Virus record (IMG/VR): IMGVR_UViG_3300020179_000214
Span: 1-21,319 of that record
DNA length: 21,319 nucleotides
Source of the DNA: a virus
Strand: one strand, 5' to 3'
The notes below the pieces were generated by a model that was given only the letters and a program-made list of their open reading frames with translations, made no database searches and was not told the DNA's origin. Position 1 is the first letter of the stretch. Each line of letters starts with the position of its first letter. Position numbers and translations under genes: made by a program. Of the stretch, positions 127 to 21,319 are shown one piece after another.

Positions 127-2014
127 TTCCAGCCGGATTAAATGCAACTATAACTTTATTATTATCTAGTGGCGGGCTACCATCACTATCCATAAAGAAA
201 ACATCTAGTTTAAAATAACCAGTGCTGTCTTCTTGAACATTTATTAGTTTACCATACCAACGCCTGTCTGAATAGGTCTCATCTATTAAAGTTATTGTAC
301 CAAAATATGCTCCTGGTGAACCAAATTTATTTAAATGATTTAACCAAGAATAACTTGAATTTAATGCTGCATCTGTAAAATTAATATATATTTGAGCAAT
401 ATCAGGAGTAACATCTGTCCACGGACGACTTAGTTTAACAATTCCAGTACCAGGATTACTAGTTGCAGTATTTGAGCTCCAAAAGTATGGTTTACTACTT
501 CCACCAGGTATACCTATAATACCTTGAATACCTTGAATACCTTGAATACCTTGAATACCTTGAATACCTTGAATACCTTGAGTACCGCGATCACCTGTTC
601 TATAAAATTCTACAGCACAGGGCTCGTCATTATCTGGTAGATCACCACTTCTATATGTTACATCTAATTCTAAATGTTGGCTATAATTTACTAAACTTGT
701 TACAGTAAATACTAAAAGCGTATCATCTTGTAAATTATTGCTTTTAATTATTACTTCGCCTTTTTCTACAGAAGAACTATTATCCCAAGTTAATATATAG
801 CTTTGTACGTCTGTAGCTTCTGAAGTATATTTACTAATATATATTTTGCTAATAGAAGCAACATCTATATGATTAAATTTTATTCTTCCAGAACCAAGAG
901 GAATTCCAGATGCTAAAACTAGAGTAGTATCATCATTAAATATATATGGCATGCCGCCATTATTTCCATGAATACCTTGAATACCTTGAATACCTTGAAT
1001 ACCTTGAATACCTTGAATACCTGCTGGTGCAAATGTAACTGCAAGAATTTGATCAAAATTAGGTGCCCCACCACTATTTGATAAAAATTCTACTTCTACT
1101 TCTACATAATTATTTGTACCAATAGTATTAGTATATATATTCTTAACTTTACCTTGCCATCTATCCTGTGGCGCATCAAGTTTAGCTAACGATATTATAC
1201 CTCGTATATTTCCTGCGGTACCAAAATTAAGAAATGAATTAAAGAAATCAGCACTATTTACTAAGTCGTAATCAAGTCTAGAAATTATTAACGATACGAT
1301 TCCACCTGTAATATCAACCCAATTTCTAGTAACTAATTTAATATACCCCGATCCAGGGTCTGCACCAGTCATTGAGTTTGTAAATTTCCATCTACGCGTA
1401 TATCCGCCAGCTATACCCCAGGTGCCTTGCAGTCCTTGAATTCCTTGAATTCCTTGAATTCCTTGAATTCCTTGTGGTCCTTGAATTCCTTGTATACCTT
1501 GGATACCTTGAAAACCTTGTATACCTGGAAAACCTTGAATACCTTCTCTTCCTTGAATACCTTGAATACCTTGAATACCTTGAATACCCTGTGGTCCAAC
1601 AATTCTACCACTATTTTTAAATAAGCCAGGAAAAACCCAAATATATAGATTAAAATCACTATCGACTATATATGCATCGCCATAATTATTACCAACTATA
1701 GGAAGGGCTGCAACTGTAGCAACATTTCCCAGAACTTTTATACTTACACCTTGAGGTCCAACAATACCTTGTATACCTGAAAATCCTTGTATACCTTGTA
1801 CACCTTGCCCAATAAGTCCTTGTATACCCTGATCGCCTTGTATACCTTGTGGTCCTTGTGGTCCTTGTGGTCCTTGTAGTTGATCAAAGCCACCACCTTG
1901 TATGCCTTGAAGACCTTGTAAACCTTGCAGTCCTCTGACACCCATTAAACCAGCAGTTATTACTATTGTAGAGTCTCGCTCAACAACTACGCTTGTTTCA
2001 CTAGTTGTTGTCAT
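1..2014 (-). CDS. Collagen-like phage tail fibre protein (partial, C-terminus beyond the left edge)
   Basis: The frame is open from ATG at 2014 to base 1, giving about 671 residues with the C-terminus missing. The start overlaps the upstream stop (ATGA at 2014-2011) and has AAGAGG just upstream. After a short N-terminus (MTTTSETSVVVERD) come five Gly-X-Y tracts, mostly GIQ with some GPQ and GLQ, at about 1932-1750, 1599-1422, 1026-965, 584-508 and 129-1. The first interval holds about 50 residues with GDAYIVDSDFNLYIW, a motif common in phage fibres. The next three intervals each hold a domain of about 120-130 residues; the first and third are clearly related (PGSGYIKL/PGTGIVKL near the start, VTFAPAGIQG/VAFNPAGIQG at the end). 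Gly-X-Y tracts normally form trimeric triple helices. By inference this is a trimeric side or tip fibre contacting the host surface, with its receptor-binding end probably outside the window. Confidence 0.88.
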   Translation of the reverse strand, partial: MTTTSETSVVVERDSTIVITAGLMGVRGLQGLQGLQGIQGGGFDQLQGPQGPQGPQGIQGDQGIQGLIGQGVQGIQGFSGIQGIVGPQGVSIKVLGNVATVAALPIVGNNYGDAYIVDSDFNLYIWVFPGLFKNSGRIVGPQGIQGIQGIQGIQGREGIQGFPGIQGFQGIQGIQGIQGPQGIQGIQGIQGIQGLQGTWGIAGGYTRRWKFTNSMTGADPGSGYIKLVTRNWVDITGGIVSLIISRLDYDLVNSADFFNSFLNFGTAGNIRGIISLAKLDAPQDRWQGKVKNIYTNTIGTNNYVEVEVEFLSNSGGAPNFDQILAVTFAPAGIQGIQGIQGIQGIQGIHGNNGGMPYIFNDDTTLVLASGIPLGSGRIKFNHIDVASISKIYISKYTSEATDVQSYILTWDNSSSVEKGEVIIKSNNLQDDTLLVFTVTSLVNYSQHLELDVTYRSGDLPDNDEPCAVEFYRTGDRGTQGIQGIQGIQGIQGIQGIQGIIGIPGGSSKPYFWSSNTATSNPGTGIVKLSRPWTDVTPDIAQIYINFTDAALNSSYSWLNHLNKFGSPGAYFGTITLIDETYSDRRWYGKLINVQEDSTGYFKLDVFFMDSDGSPPLDNNKVIVAFNPAGIQGIQGIQGIQGIQGIQGIQGIQGIQGIQGIQGIQGIQGIQG
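521..583. repeat. 9-bp tandem repeat (accttgaat) in the collagen-like gene
   Basis: Six perfect copies of accttgaat are followed by a seventh with one change (accttgagt). On the minus strand each unit adds one Gly-Ile-Gln triplet using GGT ATT CAA. The reading frame is kept whatever the copy number. Confidence 0.95.
974..1018. repeat. 9-bp tandem repeat (accttgaat), second array
   Basis: Five perfect copies of the same 9-bp unit as the 521-583 array encode Gly-Ile-Gln triplets between the first and second large interrupting domains of the fibre. Confidence 0.95.
1422..1600. repeat. Imperfect 9-bp repeat array (GIQ/GPQ/GFQ tract) in the collagen-like gene
   Basis: A degenerate array of 9-bp units mixes ccttgaatt, ccttgaata, ccttgtata and ccttgtggt. 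On the minus strand it encodes Gly-X-Gln triplets with one break (GREGIQG) and one GFPG. It is more diverged than the arrays nearer the left end, which suggests it is older or expanding less. Confidence 0.9.
1750..1935. repeat. N-terminal imperfect Gly-X-Y repeat array
   Basis: Degenerate 9-bp units (ccttgtggt, ccttgtata, ccttgaaga) encode GLQ, GPQ, GIQ and GVQ triplets with interruptions such as GGGFDQLQ. This is the first collagen-like segment of the fibre and the most varied in codons. Confidence 0.88.
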
Positions 2015-3328: not shown

Positions 3329-5146
3329 CTATTTTCTAATTTTAACACGTTCATATTCTGTTTGTGTTTCTGTTATTTTATAAATATTATATCCGCCAGC
3401 ACTGATATGTTGATATATAACGCCTTCTGAAAAAGTAGCTATATATGGGGTTGGCAATTTTAATACTATTATTCCATCGCTACCATCACCACCTATACTA
3501 CCTGCACTTCTTGTTAAGTTTATGGCAGCAGTGCCTTGTGTAAAAGCAGGATTAAATGGTTTGTCTACAGTTGCAATATTATTATCAGTTATACCAGCTA
3601 TAGTTCTAGTTTGCCCATCAACAAAAATTTTATCTCCAACTGATAAATCAGTTGTAAATGAGGTACTATAAACATTGCTAAAAAAAGTATGTGGTAAATT
3701 AACTGTTGCTCCTGATAGAGTAACTCCATTTCCTGTTACATTACCAGTAATAGTAATTGGTTTTATTAGTTCGCCTGGTTGACATCCTTTACCTCCTCCA
3801 CCACTACCTGTATTTGCTCCAATAGCATTAAGTCCTGGTTTAGCCGTAGAAGACCCTCCTATTCCCCCAACTCCATCCGCTGATATTGTAGGTGTAGCAC
3901 CTACAGTTCCACCGCCGCCTCCGGCAGCATATTTAGTAGGAGTTCCTGTTATACTACTAGTATATCCAAGTCCTCCTACTCCACCTACATTTGTTACAGG
4001 ATCATCTCGACTACTATTAGAAGGTAGTAATCCATTTCCACCTGCACTACCCGCACCACCTCCTCCACCAGCATTATACCAAACTCCGCTGCCACCAGCA
4101 TTAACGAGTCCTACAGGTAATGTAGGATTAGTTACTAAAGCCGAGGGAGTATATTGTCTATTTACACTGCCTCCTGCAACACCTCCAGGTATAGGATCAT
4201 CAGAATCTATTATAGGCGTAATAGTATCAATTCTAAACTTTTTTCGGGAATAATAATCGCCTACTATAGTGCCAGTATTAGTTAAGTTAGTTTTAAACCA
4301 TTCCTGGTCACTTCCACTAGCTCCACTACCACTACCAAATGCACCAAATCCTCCCTGCCCTGGGTAGTGTCCACCAACATTTCCCGGAGAACCTCCAGCA
4401 CCGCCTAGCGCTGTATAAGAATAAAATCTTGTAGTTTGCCCACGTTCACCATTTGCCTCTGTGTAAATATCTTTACCACCTTTACCAGCTTTACCTACAT
4501 ATATATTATAGCTTCTATTTAGCTGAATAACAGTAGTAAACTCTTTTACTTCTCCAGCACCGCCCCCTCCTGCAACCATTCCAAGAGTACCGCCGCCACC
4601 ACCGCCTCCACCACCTACTAATAGGCAGTTTGCTGTAAATGGTTCTTCTGGTATAGGTGTAGGCACTAGATTACTAGCAAATCTGCAATATTGAACGGCG
4701 TATTGTATAAGTATAGATGGAGCACTAGAATGATTAGTTCCAGACCAATCTATCTTTGCTCCATCTTTTACATTTTTACTAATCTTTGCTTTTAAAATTC
4801 CTGGTTCCGATATAAAATCTAATATTATTGATCCGGCAAAAAAACCGTCTATATCTTTATATACACCTAATAAAACAGAGCCCATTCCGTTAACACTTTC
4901 AAATTCGCTGTTAATATCACCACCAAAAATATTATAGCTAATAAACATAAAATATTTTTGTGGATCATCAACTATAGCTGGATGTTCTTTTATTATTATA
5001 GGCGCTTGAAAACTATAATCTGTAACGTTTATAGTTCCACTTTGTCGAAATACAATACTAGATAATAATCTATTAGTTGTAAATTTTAATGCTCCACCAG
5101 ATCTTATTTCAATTATATTGTTTTTTAATTCAAAAGTATTAGGCAT
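3329..5146 (-). CDS. Glycine-rich phage tail adhesin / receptor-binding protein
   Basis: This 605-residue protein has a beta-rich N-terminal domain (about 1-165), then a glycine-rich domain from about residue 172. That domain opens with LLVGGGGGGGGGTLG, continues with GGGGAGEVKEF and NIYVGKAGKGGKD, and has many GGxGG blocks to about 460. It matches the layout of the phage Gly-rich adhesin family (LVVGGGGGG..GGGGAG.., then VGxGGxGG, ending GGxGSGIVIIRY). Here the expected end motif (GGDGSDGIIVLKLPTPY) is displaced to about residue 545 by roughly 80 residues rich in Thr and beta strands (SVGDKIFVDGQTRTIAGI). Such Gly-rich folds act as receptor-binding tips in some phages, for example T-even gp38-type adhesins. 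The start overlaps the upstream stop (TAATG) and lacks a strong ribosome site, suggesting coupled translation. By inference it is a tail-tip or fibre adhesin. Confidence 0.8.
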   Translation of the reverse strand: MPNTFELKNNIIEIRSGGALKFTTNRLLSSIVFRQSGTINVTDYSFQAPIIIKEHPAIVDDPQKYFMFISYNIFGGDINSEFESVNGMGSVLLGVYKDIDGFFAGSIILDFISEPGILKAKISKNVKDGAKIDWSGTNHSSAPSILIQYAVQYCRFASNLVPTPIPEEPFTANCLLVGGGGGGGGGTLGMVAGGGGAGEVKEFTTVIQLNRSYNIYVGKAGKGGKDIYTEANGERGQTTRFYSYTALGGAGGSPGNVGGHYPGQGGFGAFGSGSGASGSDQEWFKTNLTNTGTIVGDYYSRKKFRIDTITPIIDSDDPIPGGVAGGSVNRQYTPSALVTNPTLPVGLVNAGGSGVWYNAGGGGGAGSAGGNGLLPSNSSRDDPVTNVGGVGGLGYTSSITGTPTKYAAGGGGGTVGATPTISADGVGGIGGSSTAKPGLNAIGANTGSGGGGKGCQPGELIKPITITGNVTGNGVTLSGATVNLPHTFFSNVYSTSFTTDLSVGDKIFVDGQTRTIAGITDNNIATVDKPFNPAFTQGTAAINLTRSAGSIGGDGSDGIIVLKLPTPYIATFSEGVIYQHISAGGYNIYKITETQTEYERVKIRK

Positions 5147-8672: not shown

Positions 8673-8673
8673 T

Positions 8674-9357
8674 TTAACCTACTGTAACGTGATCACCATT
8701 AGCTTCTAGTAATCTTGTAACTTGTGGAACACGATAAATTGCAAATATTTTTGTTTTCATATAGATAGATAGTTCTTCTATACACGAAAATCTATCTAGA
8801 TATTGATGCATAATTTTATTATTACCTAGGTAAACAGCAATATGATCTGGCTGTCCCATAAACTCATCTTGTGTACTAAAAGTAATAATATCATGTCGTT
8901 GAAAACCTTGATAGTCTATAGAAATTCCTGCTTCGTCTACACCTTGACCATTACTATCTAAGTACGTATAAATTGGATGATCTAAGTTATCCGAAATCCA
9001 TACATTCCATTCACGGTGAAAATAGTCAGCAATTAGTGTAAATGAATCAAACACTCCACATATATAAATTCTGTTTAAATATGGATGATCTTCTGCATAC
9101 CTATCAGGAATAAAAACGTGGCTAAGTCGCCGAAAGTTACCTACACAAAGTATAGGTAACTTTAACGTATTTAGTTCTTGTCTTTCTGTTTCTGATAATT
9201 GATATACATCATTATTAGAACGATGTATTAATATAATTGCAGAATTATTATTAGGTGTTAAATTTGTTTGTGGTTTACCTTGATTATTGGAAATATATAA
9301 TTTGCCATGTTCCTTTAATCTAGTATACATATATGTTGGTATTTCTTCGCCTAACAT
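8674..9357 (-). CDS. Degenerate gpK-like tail protein: remnant JAMM domain plus NlpC/P60 domain with the catalytic Cys replaced
   Basis: Lambda gpK-type tail proteins have an N-terminal JAMM/Mov34 metallopeptidase followed by NlpC/P60. Both are recognisable here in 227 residues, and both look dead. The JAMM 'HSHP...PSxxD...LPw.iV' region reads LIHRSNNDVYQLSETERQ then LKLPILCVG (about 43-73), with HxH changed to H45-x-S47 and the Asp changed to Glu58. The earlier Glu-containing half is missing. The NlpC/P60 'GVxDCFTL' motif reads GVFDSFTLIADYF (101-113), so the nucleophile Cys is Ser105. The His motif is kept (PDHIAVYLG, His172; then KIMHQYL, His184). It follows the J-like gene at TAAAATG, whereas gpK normally precedes gpI and gpJ. 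An intact NlpC/P60 is fused to the J-like protein, so this copy probably has a structural role in the tail tip. A less likely alternative is catalysis using Ser105 or Cys100. Confidence 0.72.
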   Translation of the reverse strand: MLGEEIPTYMYTRLKEHGKLYISNNQGKPQTNLTPNNNSAIILIHRSNNDVYQLSETERQELNTLKLPILCVGNFRRLSHVFIPDRYAEDHPYLNRIYICGVFDSFTLIADYFHREWNVWISDNLDHPIYTYLDSNGQGVDEAGISIDYQGFQRHDIITFSTQDEFMGQPDHIAVYLGNNKIMHQYLDRFSCIEELSIYMKTKIFAIYRVPQVTRLLEANGDHVTVG

Positions 9358-9358
9358 T

Positions 9359-12300
9359 TTATATTGTCTCTATTCTAATAAATTTGTCATCAAAATCAAT
9401 AATAAACTTATTGTCTGCGCTTTGAGCTTTTCCAGCAGTTATTGTGCCTAAATTACTTTCAATGGCAGATAAATCAGATACACTTATCTGAGCAGCGGTA
9501 ATACTACCAGCTTCAATTCTACCTGCATTTATAAAACCAGCATTTATTTTTCCTGCATGTAAATCAATTATATTAGCATCGCTTATAGAAGCGTTACCTA
9601 TTTTTGCTCTGGTAATAGTAGCGTTTCTAATAAATGCATCACTAATATATACACCAGTAGGTAAATCTACACCATTATTGTTTGCAGCTGTTTCTGGTTG
9701 AGTAACTACTACAAATGGAAATGGTACTCTAGTCGCATCAGTAACCCAATGATAGTGGTTTGAATCGGTTACATCTAAATCTTTATCTGGTGTTGAAAGA
9801 GCGGGTCCGTATTCTGGATGGCCCGGTAATTTGCGTACCCAGTATTTAGTTGTACCAGTTGCTGGACTAACAATACCTGGACCCGCTAGCCTAGTACTCA
9901 ATGAAAATTTAGTACCATCAGGAGCTGGTGTTTTAATATCTGGAGTATTTTGAGCACCAGTTACATAGTAGAAGGTACCTAATGGATTGTAGCTGTAGCC
10001 TAAATATCCATTATAAGTTCCTGTGGTACTTTGTACTGCATATATAGTTTTACCAGCTGCTACCGTAGTTAAAGCCGGTGTTGTACTACCACTTGGTGGG
10101 GTATGAGTAAAAATAAATCTATGACCAGTTGAACTAGCTAGTGCTGTTTCTACTGAAGTTCTTGTTTCTGCTCCGTCGCCGGCAGGCGCAACTGCTGGCA
10201 GTGTACTAACTGAAGTTAGTTTTGTAGGTTCATAAGCTATCATACATTCAAAAAATTCTTGGCCTACTCTAACTACATCTTTTAGTGCATAGCTGTCATC
10301 TGGTTCCCACCTATCTTTATAGACTAAACCACTATCACCTGTTAAACCAGTACCAATTAAACCAGTAGTATCGTCTAAAAGCTTTTCCCAGTAAGTAGTA
10401 GCAAGATAAGGTTCTGTTCCTTGTCCATATAATAGTGTGTCCATGCCGGGAGCGATAAGATTAACTTTAAAATAATATACGTCTCCGCTAGAATCTATTA
10501 CTATATCGTTCTGTTGATAACCTTGTGTTGCTAACCAGGTTCCACGCCATCTAAATCCTGCAAGCCTCCATAAATCTTCGCTAGGATATTGTTTCCAGTA
10601 TTGTAGACTAGGTTGATTGGGAAATATTTGTGAATTATGAATATCTGGTTTATATGTATTATAGTAAAAATCTACGCCAGTAATTGTACCTATTTTTGCT
10701 TCCTCTTTTTGAGCAGTAGTTTGAGTTATTCCGGTATCTACCCATACGTAACCTGAATATCTAACATTGGCTGGTGGTTCTGAATCACTAACATGGCTTA
10801 CAGGGGCTACCCAAAAACGATCTGCACGTATACCAAATTGACTTCTAGCTTGATCAATTCCGCTGCCAGTACTAGATAATCCAAAACCAGCAATGTTACC
10901 ACCATTGTCAATTTTAACACTATACTGACCTTCTAGTTGTTCTACTTTTGTAACTATAGGGCGATCACCTCTATCTACTGCATCTATACGAGCACCTAGT
11001 GTATTGTAGAGTTGACCTGCGGCTATTTGACCTGTTAGAGTTTTTAGCATTTTTTCAACATCTGCTCCAGTTTCTACAATAAAAGGTCCTAGGGCCGCAA
11101 TACTTTGTATTCCGGCTACACTTAAATTTTTAAACCATATATAGTAAATAGTTCCAGGTTGAGCAGGTACACTTGTAACATATTCTTGTTCACCAGATAA
11201 GTGATGTACTTCTGGTTTACCATGAGCTCCAAAAATCATACTTTCAAATGTTAAAATATCAGTTTTATTTCTTCTTTCCAACATATACATTATAGTTGCT
11301 TTATGTGAAGAACTACTATTAACTATGTCGTTTACATTTCTGCTTAAATTATAAGATGGTTTTTGTTGAAATCTAACTAATATAGCTGCCATTGCTCCTA
11401 TAACAATGATGCCTGTTGGTGTAGGAGGCGGTAAATTGTCAACTACTGTTCCTTCTGAGCTATTTACGGTTATTTGTCCCTCAGGGCTATAGTAGTAATC
11501 TTCAAGGTAGTCTGGATCAGGATCTGGAGCTAGCTCGCTTACTATAGCATGTCTATAATAAAATTTCTTTTCAGGATAAACATTAGCAATATAAGCTAAA
11601 AAGCTATCTGCATTATATACTCTGTTTGAATATGCTTTTATATTGGTTCCAGAAGGAATAGTTTGCTGTATACTAACAGTATATGTTCCCGGTAAAGTAG
11701 GAGGTGGAGTACTGCCATATTTAATTACGGATCCAGCCGTTATACTAACGGCTATATCTGAGAAACTACTTATTCCACTAGATATACTAAAATTAATTAG
11801 GCCTTCAGTAGGAGAAGTAGTTGATGTAGCATTAGTATTTACTTGTACTTTTACACTAATCCGGTCAGTACTATCTAGGGTATCAATAACTGCTAAAGCT
11901 GGCTGAGCTATACCGCCTGGAGCTGTAACTGTTCCAAAATTACCTACACTACCTGCTTCTAATTTTATATATTGTCCAGGGCGTAAATCTAATATCTTAT
12001 TTAAACCCGTAACGTATATTACTCCGGCTTTAGTGACTACTGGTACTCCAGATGCGTCGAGTGTTGAGGTACTAGCCTGTAAAATTGATCCAGTATATCC
12101 ACTAAATGCAGGAGCTATTCCAGCTCCTTGAAGTATAGCTCCAGGAGCAAGTCTGCCATTAGTAATACTAGTTACCGTAAGTGTATTTGTATTAATACCG
12201 CCTACAATTTCGGCATAATCGTTATTAGGAATAAATCCTTGTTGATCACTTAAATATACACGTAATTTAGTAGCATCTGTACGTCTAATTATTCCAGTTG

Positions 12301-15300
12301 TCGGATTAGGAACTTCTAGTGTAAATGAACCAATTCCTGGCTTTACTGTACTTGGGCCTGGAGGAATATTAGTTACTATTACATGATCAATACCTGAAAA
12401 TTTACTATAAATATTCGTCTTAGATACTACTCTTGTATTTACTCTATATCTAACTCCTGCTTGATTTAATCTAGGTCTTTCAAATTGCATTAAATCCTGA
12501 GAATAAGTACCTGTGCTAGTAGCAATTGCTAATATTTCTTTATCAAGGGTAAATACTATATTACCCGTAACTGTACTAGCTGCGCTCATAGTAATAGAAT
12601 TAGAAGTAACGTTAGTTACTGTTGCAGTAAGTTCAAATGCTCCTGTTCCACTAATTTTTTGTGGAGTTTTATAAAGTCTTAATAAGCTAGTATCTCCACC
12701 GGTAAGATTAATTGTGCTACTACCACTTGTAGTTGTGCCTATAAAAGTTGTTGGATCCCAAAAATCTCCTGTTCCAGTAGTTAACTGTACACCACCATTT
12801 TTCCAAATTCTTATCTCATAATGTTTAAAGTCTTTAGGAGTAGGTATTACAACAGGTGTAATCTCTAAAAATCTTCCTTTTTGAACAACTACTAGCTCAT
12901 CTATTTCTCCATAATTAGCGTCTCGGCCTACTATTTTCATTTGAGGAAATTGAGCTGTAGTAATTGTAGGTGTCCAAGGCCCCGCTATGCCTTCACGAGT
13001 AATATAGCGTAATCTAGCTTGATACTCTTCACCGATTTGTACGTCATCAATATCTATAACGGTATGCTCATAAGGAACTCTAATAGACCTTTCATTTGTT
13101 GCGGTGTAGGAGGTGGTTGCGAATGGGGATCCGACTACTCTATACTCACACTCTACAGATTGTATATTAGTTTGAATAGCTGTTCCTTGTTTTACAGTTC
13201 CTGCAACATTTATTGCTCCTGGAACTGGAGTAATAGTTACTGGTGAAGTATTATCTAATATAAAATTAGCATATACTATGCGTAATTTATATTTCCAAAC
13301 ATCATTTGATAGTAGCACAGATACTCTGTCGTCACTTATAACTTCTAGTACTGTTGGAGTATCTTTTATTACAAAACCAGATAAACTCGGAGGAAGTGTA
13401 ATACTAGTCTCAAATCTTGATGGATCTGTTTCGTTTCTGTATTGGGTAAAAATATTTTCAGCATAGTCTGTAAAAAATATTCTAGCGTTTTTATTACTAG
13501 TTGTTTCTATTCCTAGAACTATTAAATCATTAGTTTTTTGTACACTATTACCTATTAAAAATAGATCTCCTTGTGTTGGCGATGGTACAGGAGTATTTAA
13601 AGTTAATTTTCTAAATAAACCTTTAGATAAATCTATAGTTCCTGAGCCATGTGTAGCCGGAGTTGTTGAATTTGTTTTATATTTAATATATCCTGTACCA
13701 ATCTCTGTTACACGCCGCGGATTTGGACCAGCACCTATATTAGGACTTATAGTTAATAAGTCATCTACACTGAATGGGTTATCAGTCATAGGAATTGTAA
13801 GCGTAACTACACCGTCTGCGGCTAAAGCGGCACTACTATAAGTAAATCCTGTTTTTTTAATTGTTGATTCTACACCTACTGGAGCTAGTGGTAGTAAACC
13901 AGCAGCTGCTGCCTCCTTGTCTCTAACTCTAATTATATAATTTATGGTAGGGTCTATTAATACTGCATCATCTACTTCTATAAGAGTGGTTGAAAGTGCA
14001 TTTTTTATTCTGCCACTACCTAAACCCCACATAGGAACATCATGTGAAACCGTCACTCTATCTCCACGATTACACACTAAATATTCCATGTCAGTATTTA
14101 GGCTATATGTTTCTCTGCGAAGAACTGCTTGAGCCATATGCCAGCGTGCATGATCTATTGCCAATGCAGTAGTAGTAATTCCTGGCAAACTTATGGTTTC
14201 GTAAAGTTCACTGTTAGTTTGATTTTTTCCATATCTAAAAACAATAACTTCTGCTTCTTGATATTCATTGGCTTCGTCAAAAAACGTAACTCTTAAACCG
14301 TCTGGCAATCTATTTAAATTTCTAACACTTTCAAAACCCCAACTATTATGTGGACTAAAAAATTGTACTATATTTGGTTTTGCTCTATCTATAGTAACTG
14401 TCCATTTGCCGTCAATTTGTGTTGGACTTGCTCGGCCGGCTGCACAAATATCTTTTAATACATCTAGTACGCTGGTAGCACCATTTACTAATTTGTTAAA
14501 TCTAAATTTTGGACTATGTGCCTCGCAGTAGTCATACCAGTCTCCTAGTTCTGCTAAGTTTAGTCTTGTAGACATTTCAGCAGCAGGTATTTTTCTAGGA
14601 TTAGCGGGGCTCATTAATACTTTAATAAACAAACTAGCAGGATTACTTGTAGGGGCAAGTGTATTCCAATTACCGCCGCTCCAAATAGGTGCTATAGTTT
14701 GAACAATAGCATTAATACCTTCTAATTGTCCGTTAATTTGTTTACTACTTATTAGTCTAATAGCTGTTCTAGCTATTTGTGTATTTAGTGGGGATATAAA
14801 AGGTTTTGCTTGACGTCTTGCAGTAACACTTAATAGATTAACTCTAGTAGCATAACGCCATTTTTTAGCTTCTTCATTATTACTACCATGAGAAGTTCTC
14901 CAAGTACCTCCTGCGTTCTGACATGCTATTTGATTTTGAAGAAGTGGATTAGTTCTGGGTTGATCTTGTTTGGTCAATACACGAATATTCTCAATTCTAC
15001 CGTCACCATTATCATACGGTTGCGTAGTTTCTACATCTACAACATCAACGCACTGACCCGACGCGGCTGATATTGCATTAAAAGATGCATCACTTGATTC
15101 AGGAGCTTCACTAGCTCCACCAGTAAGCCTTCTTGCTTTTACTACTATAGCCGATTTAGTACCTGCTGGTAAATTATATGATCTTGTTATGGTAAATGCA
15201 TCCTTTCGCTTACCAATAGTACCAAATTGTTCACCAGGACCATTTAAAGGTATCCACGAACCTGCAGCACCATTATTAAGACTATATTCAAGCGTTATTA

Positions 15301-16798
15301 AAGGTCCTTGACTATTTACTTCATAGTCATTACCTGCGTTTTCATCTTTAACTTTAATTTTTCGCATACCTTCTGGAAAATGTAGTGCTATTTCTAAGCT
15401 GGTATATGGTGCAACAGATGGATCTGTTGAAAGAGCAGGAATACTACCAGTCATTACTAACTCAGGTGCAACAGTTGTATTTAAGATTGGACTAGGTTCG
15501 TCAGGATGTAATTGATTTATTATTTCTGCGTTCATGAACACCTGAGCAATATCACTACCATAAATTGTGTCAAACGCAGTTTGTCCGTTACTATTTCTAA
15601 ATAGTGTTCCACCACCAGTAGCAGGACTAGTATCGTAGTCTCTAAATTCTAATTCTAGATGTTCTATTGCATCAATCGTATATCTGTCCAGATTTACATT
15701 ACCTACTCTAAGTGAATCAGTATTCATTGCTAGCGGGCCGTATCCCCAACATAGAAATAATGTTAGTGCAGTATCAACTTCTGATTGATAGGTAATAAAG
15801 TTTTGAGCTCCTAGTGGAGGAGTTATGCGCATTTTACCTAATACCATTGGTATAGTTTCGTACTTAAGTAATTGGTTCGCTACTCCGGTAGCGATCATCT
15901 GTGCTTGAGTCTGTCCAGGATCTTTTGCCGCATCAGGAGGTCTTATAGGAGCAATAGCATTAATTAAATAACTGCCAGCTAACATTACTCCTGTTGTAAG
16001 AGCATATCCAGTAGCACCTGCAGCATAGGCAAAAGTAGTTCCAAATAATGTACCAGTAGTTGCAGCAGTTGTTATTACACCTGCACTAAATAAAGATGCC
16101 TGTATATACCCTGCTATATATGGTGCAAGATATATTAGCGCAATAAATGCTATGATTCTTCCTACTTTGCCTTTTGGAACAGCTCTGTACTCAATTTTAT
16201 CATTTTTCTGTACGGTAAAATGTTTCCAAGATTCTTTTTCTATAAGTCGGCCATTAACTATAATAATTAAATTTTGTAATAATTCTTTGCTAACACTGTA
16301 CTTTTCAGTAACTAGATTTACTATTTCTATTAGCTTAGTACCGGGCGAAATAGGAAAAGAAAAATTTTGAGTTTTAAGCGGATTTGGACGACCACTTAAT
16401 ATAATCTGACTTTCTGGACTATAACTATTAAACCCAACTATTCTATTTCTCCACCGTATACTATCCAAATTTTCTACTGCTGCTGGAGTTTTATAGTTTA
16501 CATGCAAAAACTGTTTATCATTAATTAAAACGCCTACATGCGATTCTTCACCTAATAGGCGTAATAATACTACATCACCTTCTTTAGGATTTTGCTCTAT
16601 CGCCCAGCCTTCTCTATACTGATTAAACAGCTCGTTAACACGTTCTCTGTCTGTTATAATATATTCATTGTTAAAACTAGGTAATTCAATACCATACTCA
16701 TTCTTATATACAAGGCGAACTAATCCCCAGCAATCTAAACCGTTTATATCTCTGCCGCCATCTTTGTAAGGTATTCCTATATATTTATTTGCCCACAT
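9359..16798 (-). CDS. Giant tail-tip fusion protein: NlpC/P60 peptidase + gpI-like segment + gpJ-like central fibre/host-specificity protein
   Basis: The product is one uninterrupted 2479-residue reading frame. Residues 1-125 are an intact NlpC/P60 domain: GLDCWGLVRLVY (Cys23), ESHVGVLI (His87) and FLHV (His99) give the expected triad. Residues about 131-208 resemble the lambda gpI / ubiquitin-like segment (IIVNGRLIEKESW, then KNDKIEYRAVPKG). Residues 213-286 are strongly hydrophobic. From about 290 it is gpJ-like: LKYETIPMVLGKMRI, FLCWGYGPLAM, ICAAGRASPTQIDGKWTV (about 780-800), fibronectin-III-like segments (about 1212-1285 and 1790-1900), and the hallmark YSVKIDNGGNIAGFGL near 1958-1973 with IRADRFWVAPV. 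Two CBM5/12-like modules follow (about 2081-2139 and 2158-2193). The C-terminus (2385-2479) has AKIGNASISDANI and FIIDFDDKFIRIET, typical of J-family ends. Lambda encodes K, I and J separately and gpJ is about 1130 residues. The protein would form the central tip, with a peptidoglycan-cutting head domain for DNA entry or tail assembly. Confidence 0.88.
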   Translation of the reverse strand: MWANKYIGIPYKDGGRDINGLDCWGLVRLVYKNEYGIELPSFNNEYIITDRERVNELFNQYREGWAIEQNPKEGDVVLLRLLGEESHVGVLINDKQFLHVNYKTPAAVENLDSIRWRNRIVGFNSYSPESQIILSGRPNPLKTQNFSFPISPGTKLIEIVNLVTEKYSVSKELLQNLIIIVNGRLIEKESWKHFTVQKNDKIEYRAVPKGKVGRIIAFIALIYLAPYIAGYIQASLFSAGVITTAATTGTLFGTTFAYAAGATGYALTTGVMLAGSYLINAIAPIRPPDAAKDPGQTQAQMIATGVANQLLKYETIPMVLGKMRITPPLGAQNFITYQSEVDTALTLFLCWGYGPLAMNTDSLRVGNVNLDRYTIDAIEHLELEFRDYDTSPATGGGTLFRNSNGQTAFDTIYGSDIAQVFMNAEIINQLHPDEPSPILNTTVAPELVMTGSIPALSTDPSVAPYTSLEIALHFPEGMRKIKVKDENAGNDYEVNSQGPLITLEYSLNNGAAGSWIPLNGPGEQFGTIGKRKDAFTITRSYNLPAGTKSAIVVKARRLTGGASEAPESSDASFNAISAASGQCVDVVDVETTQPYDNGDGRIENIRVLTKQDQPRTNPLLQNQIACQNAGGTWRTSHGSNNEEAKKWRYATRVNLLSVTARRQAKPFISPLNTQIARTAIRLISSKQINGQLEGINAIVQTIAPIWSGGNWNTLAPTSNPASLFIKVLMSPANPRKIPAAEMSTRLNLAELGDWYDYCEAHSPKFRFNKLVNGATSVLDVLKDICAAGRASPTQIDGKWTVTIDRAKPNIVQFFSPHNSWGFESVRNLNRLPDGLRVTFFDEANEYQEAEVIVFRYGKNQTNSELYETISLPGITTTALAIDHARWHMAQAVLRRETYSLNTDMEYLVCNRGDRVTVSHDVPMWGLGSGRIKNALSTTLIEVDDAVLIDPTINYIIRVRDKEAAAAGLLPLAPVGVESTIKKTGFTYSSAALAADGVVTLTIPMTDNPFSVDDLLTISPNIGAGPNPRRVTEIGTGYIKYKTNSTTPATHGSGTIDLSKGLFRKLTLNTPVPSPTQGDLFLIGNSVQKTNDLIVLGIETTSNKNARIFFTDYAENIFTQYRNETDPSRFETSITLPPSLSGFVIKDTPTVLEVISDDRVSVLLSNDVWKYKLRIVYANFILDNTSPVTITPVPGAINVAGTVKQGTAIQTNIQSVECEYRVVGSPFATTSYTATNERSIRVPYEHTVIDIDDVQIGEEYQARLRYITREGIAGPWTPTITTAQFPQMKIVGRDANYGEIDELVVVQKGRFLEITPVVIPTPKDFKHYEIRIWKNGGVQLTTGTGDFWDPTTFIGTTTSGSSTINLTGGDTSLLRLYKTPQKISGTGAFELTATVTNVTSNSITMSAASTVTGNIVFTLDKEILAIATSTGTYSQDLMQFERPRLNQAGVRYRVNTRVVSKTNIYSKFSGIDHVIVTNIPPGPSTVKPGIGSFTLEVPNPTTGIIRRTDATKLRVYLSDQQGFIPNNDYAEIVGGINTNTLTVTSITNGRLAPGAILQGAGIAPAFSGYTGSILQASTSTLDASGVPVVTKAGVIYVTGLNKILDLRPGQYIKLEAGSVGNFGTVTAPGGIAQPALAVIDTLDSTDRISVKVQVNTNATSTTSPTEGLINFSISSGISSFSDIAVSITAGSVIKYGSTPPPTLPGTYTVSIQQTIPSGTNIKAYSNRVYNADSFLAYIANVYPEKKFYYRHAIVSELAPDPDPDYLEDYYYSPEGQITVNSSEGTVVDNLPPPTPTGIIVIGAMAAILVRFQQKPSYNLSRNVNDIVNSSSSHKATIMYMLERRNKTDILTFESMIFGAHGKPEVHHLSGEQEYVTSVPAQPGTIYYIWFKNLSVAGIQSIAALGPFIVETGADVEKMLKTLTGQIAAGQLYNTLGARIDAVDRGDRPIVTKVEQLEGQYSVKIDNGGNIAGFGLSSTGSGIDQARSQFGIRADRFWVAPVSHVSDSEPPANVRYSGYVWVDTGITQTTAQKEEAKIGTITGVDFYYNTYKPDIHNSQIFPNQPSLQYWKQYPSEDLWRLAGFRWRGTWLATQGYQQNDIVIDSSGDVYYFKVNLIAPGMDTLLYGQGTEPYLATTYWEKLLDDTTGLIGTGLTGDSGLVYKDRWEPDDSYALKDVVRVGQEFFECMIAYEPTKLTSVSTLPAVAPAGDGAETRTSVETALASSTGHRFIFTHTPPSGSTTPALTTVAAGKTIYAVQSTTGTYNGYLGYSYNPLGTFYYVTGAQNTPDIKTPAPDGTKFSLSTRLAGPGIVSPATGTTKYWVRKLPGHPEYGPALSTPDKDLDVTDSNHYHWVTDATRVPFPFVVVTQPETAANNNGVDLPTGVYISDAFIRNATITRAKIGNASISDANIIDLHAGKINAGFINAGRIEAGSITAAQISVSDLSAIESNLGTITAGKAQSADNKFIIDFDDKFIRIETI

Positions 16799-17403
16799 TA
16801 GAATAATCCTGGAAAATAAGCTGGTGTAAACTTATGGTAAGGAAAAGGTTCTCTGTCTAAGTTTATCATGTTTAACTCCGCTTGAACAGAATCTCTAGTA
16901 TAAGTTATATTAGTTAGAAAAAAATCTGTAAAAGTAATTTCTACAACACTAGGGTTACTTGCTAATACTAGCTGTAATTTTACTAGCGGAGGACCATTTA
17001 TTTCGCGAATAAGCGGCGTTAAATATCCTGCAACATCATACAATGTAAGAACACATCTAGGACTTTGTCCTGCAGTTTCATCCGGCAGTGTAATTCCCAA
17101 GGGTATAAATATAAATTTTTCACTGCTTGGACCAATTACACCATAGATAATTTCTTCTGCATCGGTTTGCAAAGAACTTAGTGGCATACTAGATCCACTT
17201 ACTAGTTTGTTCAAACCTTGGTTACCAATTATTACTGGACTTGCAAAATGAGTAGTATAATTATCGGCAACTCGAACAACAGCTCTTGTCTCATCCTCAG
17301 GATCGTAGATAGTAATTAAAGTTATTAATGTATCATCTGAGTCTGGACTATACAATGCTTTAAGTACTGCTGCCTTATTAGTAAATGAATTTAATCTGCT
17401 CAT
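16798..17403 (-). CDS. DUF1833-like minor tail protein (lambda gpL position)
   Basis: This 201-residue protein ends in DREPFPYHKFTPAYFPGLF, the characteristic end of DUF1833-type phage tail proteins ('EPFPxxxFtPxxFPGLF'). It carries the preceding 'ITFTDFFLTNITYTRDSVQAE' type of strand pattern (about 155-175). It sits where lambda has gpL, between the M-like protein and the NlpC/P60 protein. Lambda gpL binds an iron-sulfur cluster through conserved cysteines. Here only one Cys is present (CVLTLYDVAGY, about residue 117), so an iron-sulfur cluster is not expected. The start overlaps the upstream stop (ATGA, 17403-17400) and the stop overlaps the next start (TAATG). By inference it is a distal-tail or tip hub subunit. 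Confidence 0.82.
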   Translation of the reverse strand: MSRLNSFTNKAAVLKALYSPDSDDTLITLITIYDPEDETRAVVRVADNYTTHFASPVIIGNQGLNKLVSGSSMPLSSLQTDAEEIIYGVIGPSSEKFIFIPLGITLPDETAGQSPRCVLTLYDVAGYLTPLIREINGPPLVKLQLVLASNPSVVEITFTDFFLTNITYTRDSVQAELNMINLDREPFPYHKFTPAYFPGLF

Positions 17404-18205: not shown

Positions 18206-21200
18206 TTACCTCTTAATTAATTGGGGCTTCATACCAAAAGTATTACCTATTGAATTTTGCATACTACTATTATTTCTAGCTACTTCTCCACTTATCATAT
18301 CTCCAATAGTAATCTCTATATTTCTATTGCCACGACTATCTGTTGTTTCTTTTTTACTTGCTTGCTGTCCGGTATAATTATTAATTTTAATGTCTACTAC
18401 AGTACCTCCACCGCCCTCTACTCCTAAATTTCCGCTGCTCATGCGTTTTAGAGGCATAATAGCTTCTGGTCCTGCTTCACCCATAACTCCAAGGCGATTT
18501 GGCATGCCACCTCGACCAAATTTGAATACTGTAGGAGTATCTACTACTTTGTTAGTAAAACTACCACCTCTAGCATAACCTTCTAAACTAAATGCTGCTC
18601 CTGTGGCTGTGAATATAATGTCTCCACCAGGATTTTGTCCAGGAATTGGAGCACTTCCAGGTACTATAGGAGCACCTCTACCTCCTGTAAGAATCGATAT
18701 TGCCGCATTAAGCGTTGCTGCTGCCGCTCTCTTCATTGCCATTTGTACTAACATGCGAGCATAATCTTCTAGTATACTAGCCATGAAATCTTTAAAGCTT
18801 CCTTTACCAGTTTTTATAAATTCTAGAAGAGAAGTGCCCATTTTATCAAAAGAACTAACCCAAAAATCACTAAATCTTTGTACTTCATCAGGTACAAATG
18901 CAGCATCTATCCGCTCTTTAGCCTCTGTAGCAGCTCTACCTAAATCTTCCGTTCTTTGTGTTGCAACTGCTAAGTTTTGTTGAGCTTCTAATACAGCAGG
19001 ACTAATATTTTGTGCTTTAGTAACTGGATCGACACCTGCAGCTCGTTTTGCATTATCTAACCTTTGTTGTGCTGCTAGTTCATCTCTCTTCGCTTGTACT
19101 AGATCTCGCTCTAATTGTACATCTATTCTTCTTTTTTGAATACTTAATTGTCTTTTTGCTAAATCATCACCAGTTAAACTACCTAATCGTCCTTGAATGT
19201 TTAAGCTAATTTCTTCTAGTTCTAGTTGATGTTCTAATTCTCTTGTCTCTCTTTGTTTAGCTATAACCAAATTATCTGCTTTAATTAGTTCTCTTGTTTG
19301 ACCTAATTCTCTTTCTTGTAGTTTATTAATAGATACAAATCCATTGACTAATATCTCTATTAGTCGTTGAGCAACAGGAGCTAAGTTGCTATACCTAGCT
19401 CTTAATTCCTCTAAAAGTTTTACCTGTTTTTCAATTTCCTCATTAGTATTTTGTATAGTAATTGTTCCGCCATAGCTACCAGGCGTGGCACCAGGCCGCG
19501 TCTCAGTCCTTGTACCTGCAAGACCTCTTAATCGCGCTAATTCTCTTTCTGCTCTAGCAATCTCTGCAGCTGCAACGCTTTGATCTTGTTGAAGATTATT
19601 CTCTATTCTAAGAATATCTAATTTCTGTTTTGCAAGCGCTAACTCATCACCAACTATATTGCCTAGTCTTGCCTGTATATCTAGCCTAGTTTCATCTAGT
19701 TTTATCTGATGTTCTTTTTCTGTTGTCAATTTTTGCGCATTTCTAATTTGTAGATCTTCTGCAGCTTGTGTTTTTGTCTCTGCTATAGCTCTGGCTTGTA
19801 ATACTTCCTGTGGTACAAATGCAGCTTTTGTTTGCTCCTTTGACCTACGTGCTGCAATGCCTGCGGCCTTCAACTGCTCTTCAAGAGATCTAACCTTGGC
19901 TTCTAGTTCTATTCTAGCAGCAGTCTCATTTATTCTAAAAGCTCCACCATAAGGATCACCAACTATACGACTACCCGAAACTGCTTCTTCTTTCTCTAGT
20001 GCTGCTCGCGCTTGCAATAGTTGCTCTTGAATATTTAGTTCATCAGCTTTAAGGTTATTATCAATTTGTTGTAATCTTATAGCCATTTGTGCTTTAGCTA
20101 AATTATCTCCTCCTATATTACCCTTTTGCTCTTCAATGCTTAACCTAATTTCTTCTAGCTTTAGCTCGTGTTCTACTGTTCTTATTTTAGCTGTTTCAAT
20201 TCTAAGAATCTCATCAGCTGCAGCTTTTCGCTTTTCTTCATTTATAGTTAACTGTTTAACAATACGATCTTGATCAGTTAGTGTTTTATTAGTACCAGTT
20301 TGTAACATATGCAAAGCTTTAAGAGCATGTACTCTTGCTTGATCTTCATCTGCTACAACTTGCAATAATTTTAGCTGTTCTTTTAATTCTTCTGTCATTA
20401 AAGTAGTTGGATCACCATCTATTCCTGGTCTAGCATTTTCCTTTAGAAATTTATTAACATTTGCTTTAGATATTGCTGCAGTTCGCTCAAGATCCGCTGA
20501 TTCTATTGCTTGCTGTGCTGCTACTATCTGCCTATTCATTTCAGCAAGCCTATCAAATGCTTCTAGAGATTCTCCACGTACTAATTGTTTTTGTATTTCA
20601 ATCCTTTTTATTAATAGTTCATTAGTTTGCTTTGTAGTTAAAGCAGTTAGATTAGCAACCATATTAATATTTTCATATTCTGTTTTTGACTTAGCTAATG
20701 TTTCGAGTCTTTGAGCTTCTAAATTTACTTTAGTTCTTAGCTCATCAGCTGTCTCTTTATCAGTTCCCCCTTTTTGTGCTACATCTATTGCATCTAATTT
20801 TTCCTTTGCACTACTTTTAATTATCTGTAGTTGACGACTAAGTGATCTATTAGCAAGATCAATTTGAGCTTGTAATTTTCCAGGAGTATCACTACCAATC
20901 TGTGAAATTATTTGTGAAGCTTTTTGTTGTTCAAATTCTAGTTCTGCTCTAGTTTGCTCTCCTCTAACTTTTATGGTATCAACTAATTCCTTATCTCCTA
21001 CTTTTCTTTTATCTGAAGCAGCCTTTGCGTCAACTTGTGTCATTCTCAGTCTACGCATCATAGCATCAAATAATTCTGGAAAATCTCCAAGAAGATTTTG
21101 TATTTGTTTAATTGTTCCCTTATCTAGTGCTTCTAATGCCCTTTCACTATTACTTCTACGAGTTACAAGTCTTGATAACATTGAAATATCAGCGGTCGAT

Positions 21201-21319
21201 AAAAATCCCTGTTTTGTCTCTTTGGCAGCTAATTCTTGAATTTTTTGATCATCACGCATCAGTTCTATTGATAAACGTAATTTATCAGTAGAATTAGCTA
21301 AATTCATTTGAGATTTAAT
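18206..21319 (-). CDS. Tail tape measure protein, lambda gpH type (5' end open at the window edge)
   Basis: The frame runs to TAA at 18208-18206. An ATG exists at 21307 (1033 residues from there), but there is no ribosome site before it and the frame stays open to the edge, so the true start is probably outside. Numbering from that ATG: residues 1-810 are long charged coiled-coil helix, with a region repeated three times (anchors at 380, 533 and 693). Residues about 810-880 (FWVSSFDKMGTSLLEFIKTG, then DFMASILEDYARMLVQMAM) match the lambda-type tape measure C-terminal domain. Residues about 912-970 carry the hallmark PTVFKFGRGG...LGVMGEAGPEAIMPLKR...LGVEG. It forms the extended ruler inside the tail tube and usually contributes to DNA entry. 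At about 1.5 angstrom per helical residue, the visible part alone implies a tail of roughly 150 nm or more. Confidence 0.93.
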   Translation of the reverse strand: MKSQMNLANSTDKLRLSIELMRDDQKIQELAAKETKQGFLSTADISMLSRLVTRRSNSERALEALDKGTIKQIQNLLGDFPELFDAMMRRLRMTQVDAKAASDKRKVGDKELVDTIKVRGEQTRAELEFEQQKASQIISQIGSDTPGKLQAQIDLANRSLSRQLQIIKSSAKEKLDAIDVAQKGGTDKETADELRTKVNLEAQRLETLAKSKTEYENINMVANLTALTTKQTNELLIKRIEIQKQLVRGESLEAFDRLAEMNRQIVAAQQAIESADLERTAAISKANVNKFLKENARPGIDGDPTTLMTEELKEQLKLLQVVADEDQARVHALKALHMLQTGTNKTLTDQDRIVKQLTINEEKRKAAADEILRIETAKIRTVEHELKLEEIRLSIEEQKGNIGGDNLAKAQMAIRLQQIDNNLKADELNIQEQLLQARAALEKEEAVSGSRIVGDPYGGAFRINETAARIELEAKVRSLEEQLKAAGIAARRSKEQTKAAFVPQEVLQARAIAETKTQAAEDLQIRNAQKLTTEKEHQIKLDETRLDIQARLGNIVGDELALAKQKLDILRIENNLQQDQSVAAAEIARAERELARLRGLAGTRTETRPGATPGSYGGTITIQNTNEEIEKQVKLLEELRARYSNLAPVAQRLIEILVNGFVSINKLQERELGQTRELIKADNLVIAKQRETRELEHQLELEEISLNIQGRLGSLTGDDLAKRQLSIQKRRIDVQLERDLVQAKRDELAAQQRLDNAKRAAGVDPVTKAQNISPAVLEAQQNLAVATQRTEDLGRAATEAKERIDAAFVPDEVQRFSDFWVSSFDKMGTSLLEFIKTGKGSFKDFMASILEDYARMLVQMAMKRAAAATLNAAISILTGGRGAPIVPGSAPIPGQNPGGDIIFTATGAAFSLEGYARGGSFTNKVVDTPTVFKFGRGGMPNRLGVMGEAGPEAIMPLKRMSSGNLGVEGGGGTVVDIKINNYTGQQASKKETTDSRGNRNIEITIGDMISGEVARNNSSMQNSIGNTFGMKPQLIKR
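19112..20170 (-). repeat. Region of about 155 residues repeated three times within the tape measure protein
   Basis: Three related segments begin at residues 380 (HELKLEEIRLSIEEQKGNIG), 533 (HQIKLDETRLDIQARLGNIV) and 693 (HQLELEEISLNIQGRLGSLT). Each continues GD.LA..Q..I...rId.nL. A second shared landmark, AAFVPxEV, follows the first (residue 496) and third (residue 803) copies. Spacings are 153 and 160 residues. The stated interval covers the first anchor to the end of the third anchor; flanking helix probably belongs to the units too. Confidence 0.85.

Follow-up and report, generated by a model that had tools for sequence, protein, structure and literature searches.

The window analysed here, a stretch of 21,319 nucleotides (IMG/VR record IMGVR_UViG_3300020179_000214, taken as a whole), derives from an uncultivated phage and carries a tail module on the minus strand. 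The genes coding for a tape measure protein, a 266-aa tail protein, a DUF1833/gpL-like protein and the host-specificity protein J are followed by a small gene, termed K', and by a gene for a 1078-aa protein (Table 1). The K' open reading frame is full-length, begins with ATG and is separated by a single base pair from both the J stop (position 9358) and the next start (position 8673), in agreement with a previous sequence-only reading of the locus, which had described the gene as complete, in frame and tightly spaced. The gene order around K' is common to the window and two further IMG/VR contigs, L006 and L007, and in all three diverged phages the frame is intact and lies 1-6 bp from both neighbours. 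No terminator-like sites were found around K', and promoter-like sites occur there at a frequency not above chance. Together with the one-base spacing, this places K' most simply within one transcription unit.

Table 1. Features of the K' locus and its surroundings (window coordinates)
Feature	Positions	Strand	Basis
Tape measure	18206-21307	(-)	
DUF1833/gpL-like protein	16798-17403	(-)	
J host-specificity protein (2479 aa), a fusion of NlpC, I/ThiS-like and J parts	9359..16798	(-)	phrog_31 2.6e-50, phrog_329; Pfam
Intact NlpC/P60 domain of J, residues 8-123 (C23, H87, H99)	16430..16777	(-)	Pfam, alignment
gpI/ThiS-like stretch of J, residues 131-210	16169..16408	(-)	ThiS 8.2e-4, Lambda_tail_I 0.04, below Pfam cut-offs
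K' gene	8674..9357	(-)	227-aa ORF; relatives L006/L007 in same place; NLPC_P60
N-terminal 92 residues of K', place of JAMM in canonical gpK	9082..9357	(-)	model pLDDT about 57-72
His45-Arg46-Ser47 of K' (earlier read as HxH changed to HRS)	9217..9225	(-)	not conserved in alignments
NlpC/P60 domain of K', residues 93-209	8731..9081	(-)	Pfam, hhalign, model
Ser105 codon TCA at catalytic Cys position	9043..9045	(-)	codon and homologue alignment
His172, catalytic His, kept in 3/3 K'	8842..8844	(-)	alignments
His184, third catalytic position, kept in 3/3 K'	8806..8808	(-)	alignments
Gene for 1078-aa protein directly after K', also in L006 and L007	5436..8672	(-)	ORF

Elsewhere in the window, positions 3329-5146 code for a 605-aa protein with a Gly_rich_2 match (E 1.1e-8), which probably is a tail or fibre part, and positions 2634-2972 for a protein of 112 aa that combines a coiled coil with a single likely membrane segment; L006 and L007 carry almost the same protein, and relatives about 120 aa long occur in J-related phages. 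Further downstream in their tail regions, from about position 16255 on, L006 and L007 harbour a gene containing extended collagen-like repeats (QGIQGIQG); repeats of this type give spurious open reading frames on both strands, also at window positions 1411-1941.

The NlpC/P60 domain of J retains all three catalytic residues, as had been assumed previously. An NlpC domain fused N-terminally to J is a widespread arrangement, present at 39 IMG/VR loci with J proteins from about 1500 to 2700 aa in length. In the J-core search the N-terminus of J is covered at 39 loci, L006 and L007 included; all of these carry the DCWGL motif of this domain, and 38 of them also the His motif as judged by pattern, the exception being L133.

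Residues 93-209 of K' are a true NlpC/P60 domain. The Pfam family NLPC_P60, which matches 20/20 members of our alignment A7, covers residues 102-205 (E 5.6e-6, 26.7 bits vs a cut-off of 23), and a profile-profile comparison (hhalign) of this half with a canonical gpK profile, built from 17 proteins without K', yields a probability of 99.1 and an E value of 1.5e-18. PHROGs assigns K' to minor tail protein families. The AlphaFold2 model, obtained from an alignment that included canonical gpK, is of moderate quality overall (pLDDT 70.5) and mostly reaches 82-90 in the core and the C-terminal sheet. Its fold is NlpC-like, and its best PDB matches in Foldseek are NlpC enzymes such as MepS.

The motif GVFDSFTL, in which a serine had been noticed in place of the NlpC/P60 cysteine, indeed spans residues 101-108, and Ser105 occupies the position of the catalytic cysteine at the helix start. 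This cysteine is missing in all three K' proteins, where codon 105 reads TCA (window), ACT (L006) and TCA (L007), i.e., Ser/Thr/Ser, and each of these codons is at least two base changes away from any Cys codon. A sequencing error or a fresh mutation is ruled out, since two other contigs carry Ser and Thr and two base changes would be needed. Among the gpK and NlpC relatives surveyed, all canonical gpK rows covering the catalytic site have Cys, and departures at the site are confined to K'. The Asp preceding the lost Cys, the His-bearing sheet and both histidines are kept; His172 had been listed by the sequence-only reading, His184 had not. The conserved C-terminal tail of K' (NGDHVT) reaches past that of most canonical gpK proteins.

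The N-terminal region presents a different picture: K' retains 15/20 of the near-invariant canonical residues in the NlpC part vs 2/15 in the JAMM region (Fisher p 5e-4). His45-Arg46-Ser47 and Glu58 stand at the places of H-x-H and Asp, and these letters had been taken for the remnant of a JAMM domain without its N-terminal half. The letters are there, but homology is unsupported. The JAMM motif E...HxH...S..D is absent from K', as its E is missing, residues 45-47 read H-R-S (window), Y-R-S (L006) or H-K-P (L007), and Glu replaces Asp. Residues 1-92 score no higher against the gpK profile than a shuffled sequence and show no profile-profile match to JAMM (hhalign probability 0.1), and Prok-JAB (PF14464) matches 0/3 K' vs 17/17 canonical gpK proteins. 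No JAMM structure is found among the 50 best Foldseek rows of the K' model, while the model of a canonical gpK, used as a control, matches JAMM1 5lda at 6.3e-5. In the survey canonical gpK proteins possess the complete JAMM H-H-S/T-D set wherever the region is present. The order of helices and strands in the N-terminal K' model is loosely JAMM-like, at a pLDDT of 57-72 and with canonical gpK in the input alignment. A recognisable JAMM remnant is therefore not supported, and the earlier statement that both peptidase sites are lost is exact only for NlpC, since a JAMM domain as such goes undetected. Judging from these comparisons, the N-terminus may have arisen either by erosion of a JAMM domain or by its replacement. 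In the lambda genome (NC_001416, L033) the JAMM N-terminal half (ESCGF...) is found in another frame at about 14112-14380, just upstream of K, and the annotated lambda K (199 aa) looks frameshift-split compared with the full-length gpK of relatives.

Two close relatives of K' were found in IMG/VR, L006 (77% identical) and L007 (84%), and the sample thus comprises three sequences, all metagenomic. Scans of IMG/VR with further profiles and with the J-core profile revealed no K' beyond the window, L006 and L007, and neither did a profile scan of cellular genomes. Among the matches listed, isolated phages contribute canonical gpK genes or unannotated records, and those examined precede I and J. 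Apart from L006 and L007, the J-core search retrieved 53 J relatives; all of these are devoid of K' matches, and about 39 of them have sequence following J, which holds other genes. In L133, whose J is the nearest (61% in the core), J is followed directly by a 1086-aa gene without K', and in the isolate Curvibacter phage P26059A, whose J is related, K' is absent from the 29 kb examined. Given these J relatives without K', the most plausible reading is that a single lineage gained the gene.

As to its origin, the NlpC tree groups K' with lambda-type gpK, split (100/100) from every NlpC domain that is fused or adjacent to J, and on a stem branch of 3.03 changes per column. On these sequence grounds, K' descends from the NlpC half of lambda-type gpK, not from the J-fused NlpC. 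Tree and hhalign results agree for this half, and a recent duplication of the J NlpC domain as the source of K' is ruled out by the tree. The designation of K' as a second gpK-like protein calls for caution: a full gpK between L and J is absent from the window, and the NlpC domain of J belongs to a clade separate from K'.

Compared with lambda-type gpK, which combines JAB/JAMM and NlpC/P60 domains, K' is homologous in its NlpC half along about 115 residues, including the Asp and His residues named above, and keeps the motifs Y-x-R, GVFD, DYxxRE and D-H-x-A-x-Y. In contrast to gpK, it has Ser/Thr for Cys, a shorter N-terminal region and no detectable JAMM, and its gene follows J, whereas the gpK gene lies between L and I. 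Accordingly, K' has a gpK-clade NlpC domain, but neither two peptidase domains nor the place between L and I/J. The J-fused NlpC domains of the window and of relatives such as the freshwater Curvibacter phage share superfamily and tail module with K', but their catalytic residues are intact, they form a separate clade, and no K' follows J in those relatives.

Selection on K' was estimated by the Nei-Gojobori method for the three pairs, giving dN/dS values of 0.17/0.93, 0.10/1.14 and 0.16/1.14, that is, ratios of about 0.09-0.18, which are rough since dS is near saturation; the N-terminal region of J has higher ratios (about 0.18-0.24). These values indicate purifying selection and disfavour decay. 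A relic that heads for loss and is kept only by its late-operon position would account for the long stem and for the loss of nearly every JAMM feature, both of which attest to a past phase of fast change. However, an intact frame spaced 1-6 bp on both sides in three diverged phages and the low dN/dS ratios render this very improbable. Ser/Thr/Ser at position 105, both histidines in all three proteins and the low ratios rather point to a maintained change. The hallmarks of a pseudoenzyme, i.e., loss of a catalytic residue across relatives under purifying selection, are thus found here, in three sequences only.

Constraint is unevenly distributed along K'. Residues 169-209, which contain both His, are among the most conserved stretches (5/41 variable columns vs 63/186 elsewhere, p 0.005, for a segment chosen after looking), and the N-terminus is more variable (33/92 columns vs 35/135 in the remainder). 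This distribution bears on the notion that K' might have taken on a new function independent of the gpK ligand and link J to the 1078-aa protein as an adaptor of the tail or fibre, which only reuses the NlpC fold and makes contact through its N-terminus. The location of the gene, with J on one side and the next tail gene on the other, the lack of detectable relatives for the 92 N-terminal residues and the extended NGDHVT tail would suit such a role, but the presumed contact is the more variable half and the His-bearing groove side ranks among the most constrained parts, and we regard an adaptor as unlikely.

We rather favour, with some confidence, the view that K' is a former gpK kept as a non-cutting, ligand-binding protein, which would function in tail assembly or cell-wall contact. 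A phage lineage would have acquired a lambda-type gpK between J and the following gene; as sequence comparison shows, the Cys nucleophile disappeared from its NlpC half, and of its JAMM half nothing recognisable is left, through either replacement or erosion. K' is still under selection and has kept the NlpC groove without the thiol, and hence most likely binds without cutting, while cutting would be left to the intact J-fused NlpC. During assembly of the tail, the ligand may be the gpI part of J, which is ubiquitin-like; for lambda, gpI with its ubiquitin-like domain has been put forward as the substrate of gpK (PMC1779556), and gpK was undetected in virions and judged non-structural (PMC10721106). 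Another candidate is the peptidoglycan stem peptide at infection, as with RipD (Rv1566c), a non-catalytic, peptidoglycan-binding NlpC/P60 protein that is inactive because of catalytic-site changes (PMC6628586). K' resembles RipD in having an NlpC fold with such changes, and RipD structures (4lj1, 4jxb) are among the weaker Foldseek matches of the K' model (E 0.023, 15% identity); yet, RipD is a cellular mycobacterial protein remote from K', and peptidoglycan binding is a feature of RipD that for K' is putative. The kept pseudo-enzyme envisaged by the sequence-only reading therefore stands as to the nucleophile, lost in all known close relatives, as to the intact NlpC in J and as to selection against decay, but not as to its JAMM part, and the structural job that it envisaged is putative. 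Of the two findings that would have spoken against that reading, an unrelated fold and a close homologue with Cys at the site, neither turned up.

The conserved Ser/Thr hydroxyl at position 105 together with both histidines could still be catalytic, which counts against a pseudoenzyme, and the retention of most canonical-invariant NlpC residues is equally expected of a working enzyme. K' might hence be a Ser/Thr-type hydrolase, in which the hydroxyl replaces the thiol within an otherwise intact S/T-His-His triad. The low pI of the K' NlpC domain (4.7-5.0 vs 5.6-7.5 in canonical gpK) weakly favours this, although a whole-domain pI is not a pocket charge. The Thr in L006 fits poorly, since for both steric and mechanistic reasons threonine makes a difficult internal nucleophile in this fold. 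Papain-fold families with a conserved Ser for Cys beside two other active-site residues are known (menin, DUF2272, DUF2145 and DUF3750), and the C-to-S forms of bleomycin hydrolase and congopain retain some activity, aided by a negatively charged pocket (PMC10318531). However, the activity of the Ser-for-Cys families is itself unproven (PMC10318531), and they are other families than K', which matches none of them in Pfam. Silicatein was dropped as a Cys-to-Ser precedent, since its triad mechanism is disputed (PMC6233156). Overall, a hydrolase of this type appears rather unlikely, and it is doubtful that the tail module pairs a natural Ser/Thr-His-His NlpC enzyme with a Cys-His-His NlpC; if true, this would amount to a nucleophile switch inside one peptidase family and one operon.

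The role of gpK in tail assembly and the need for its peptidase sites are an unsettled question in the field. If K' is indeed a binding protein of gpK descent, its lineage, which has no nucleophile and no detectable JAMM in K' and an intact NlpC in J, would separate gpK binding from cutting and thereby make this question testable.
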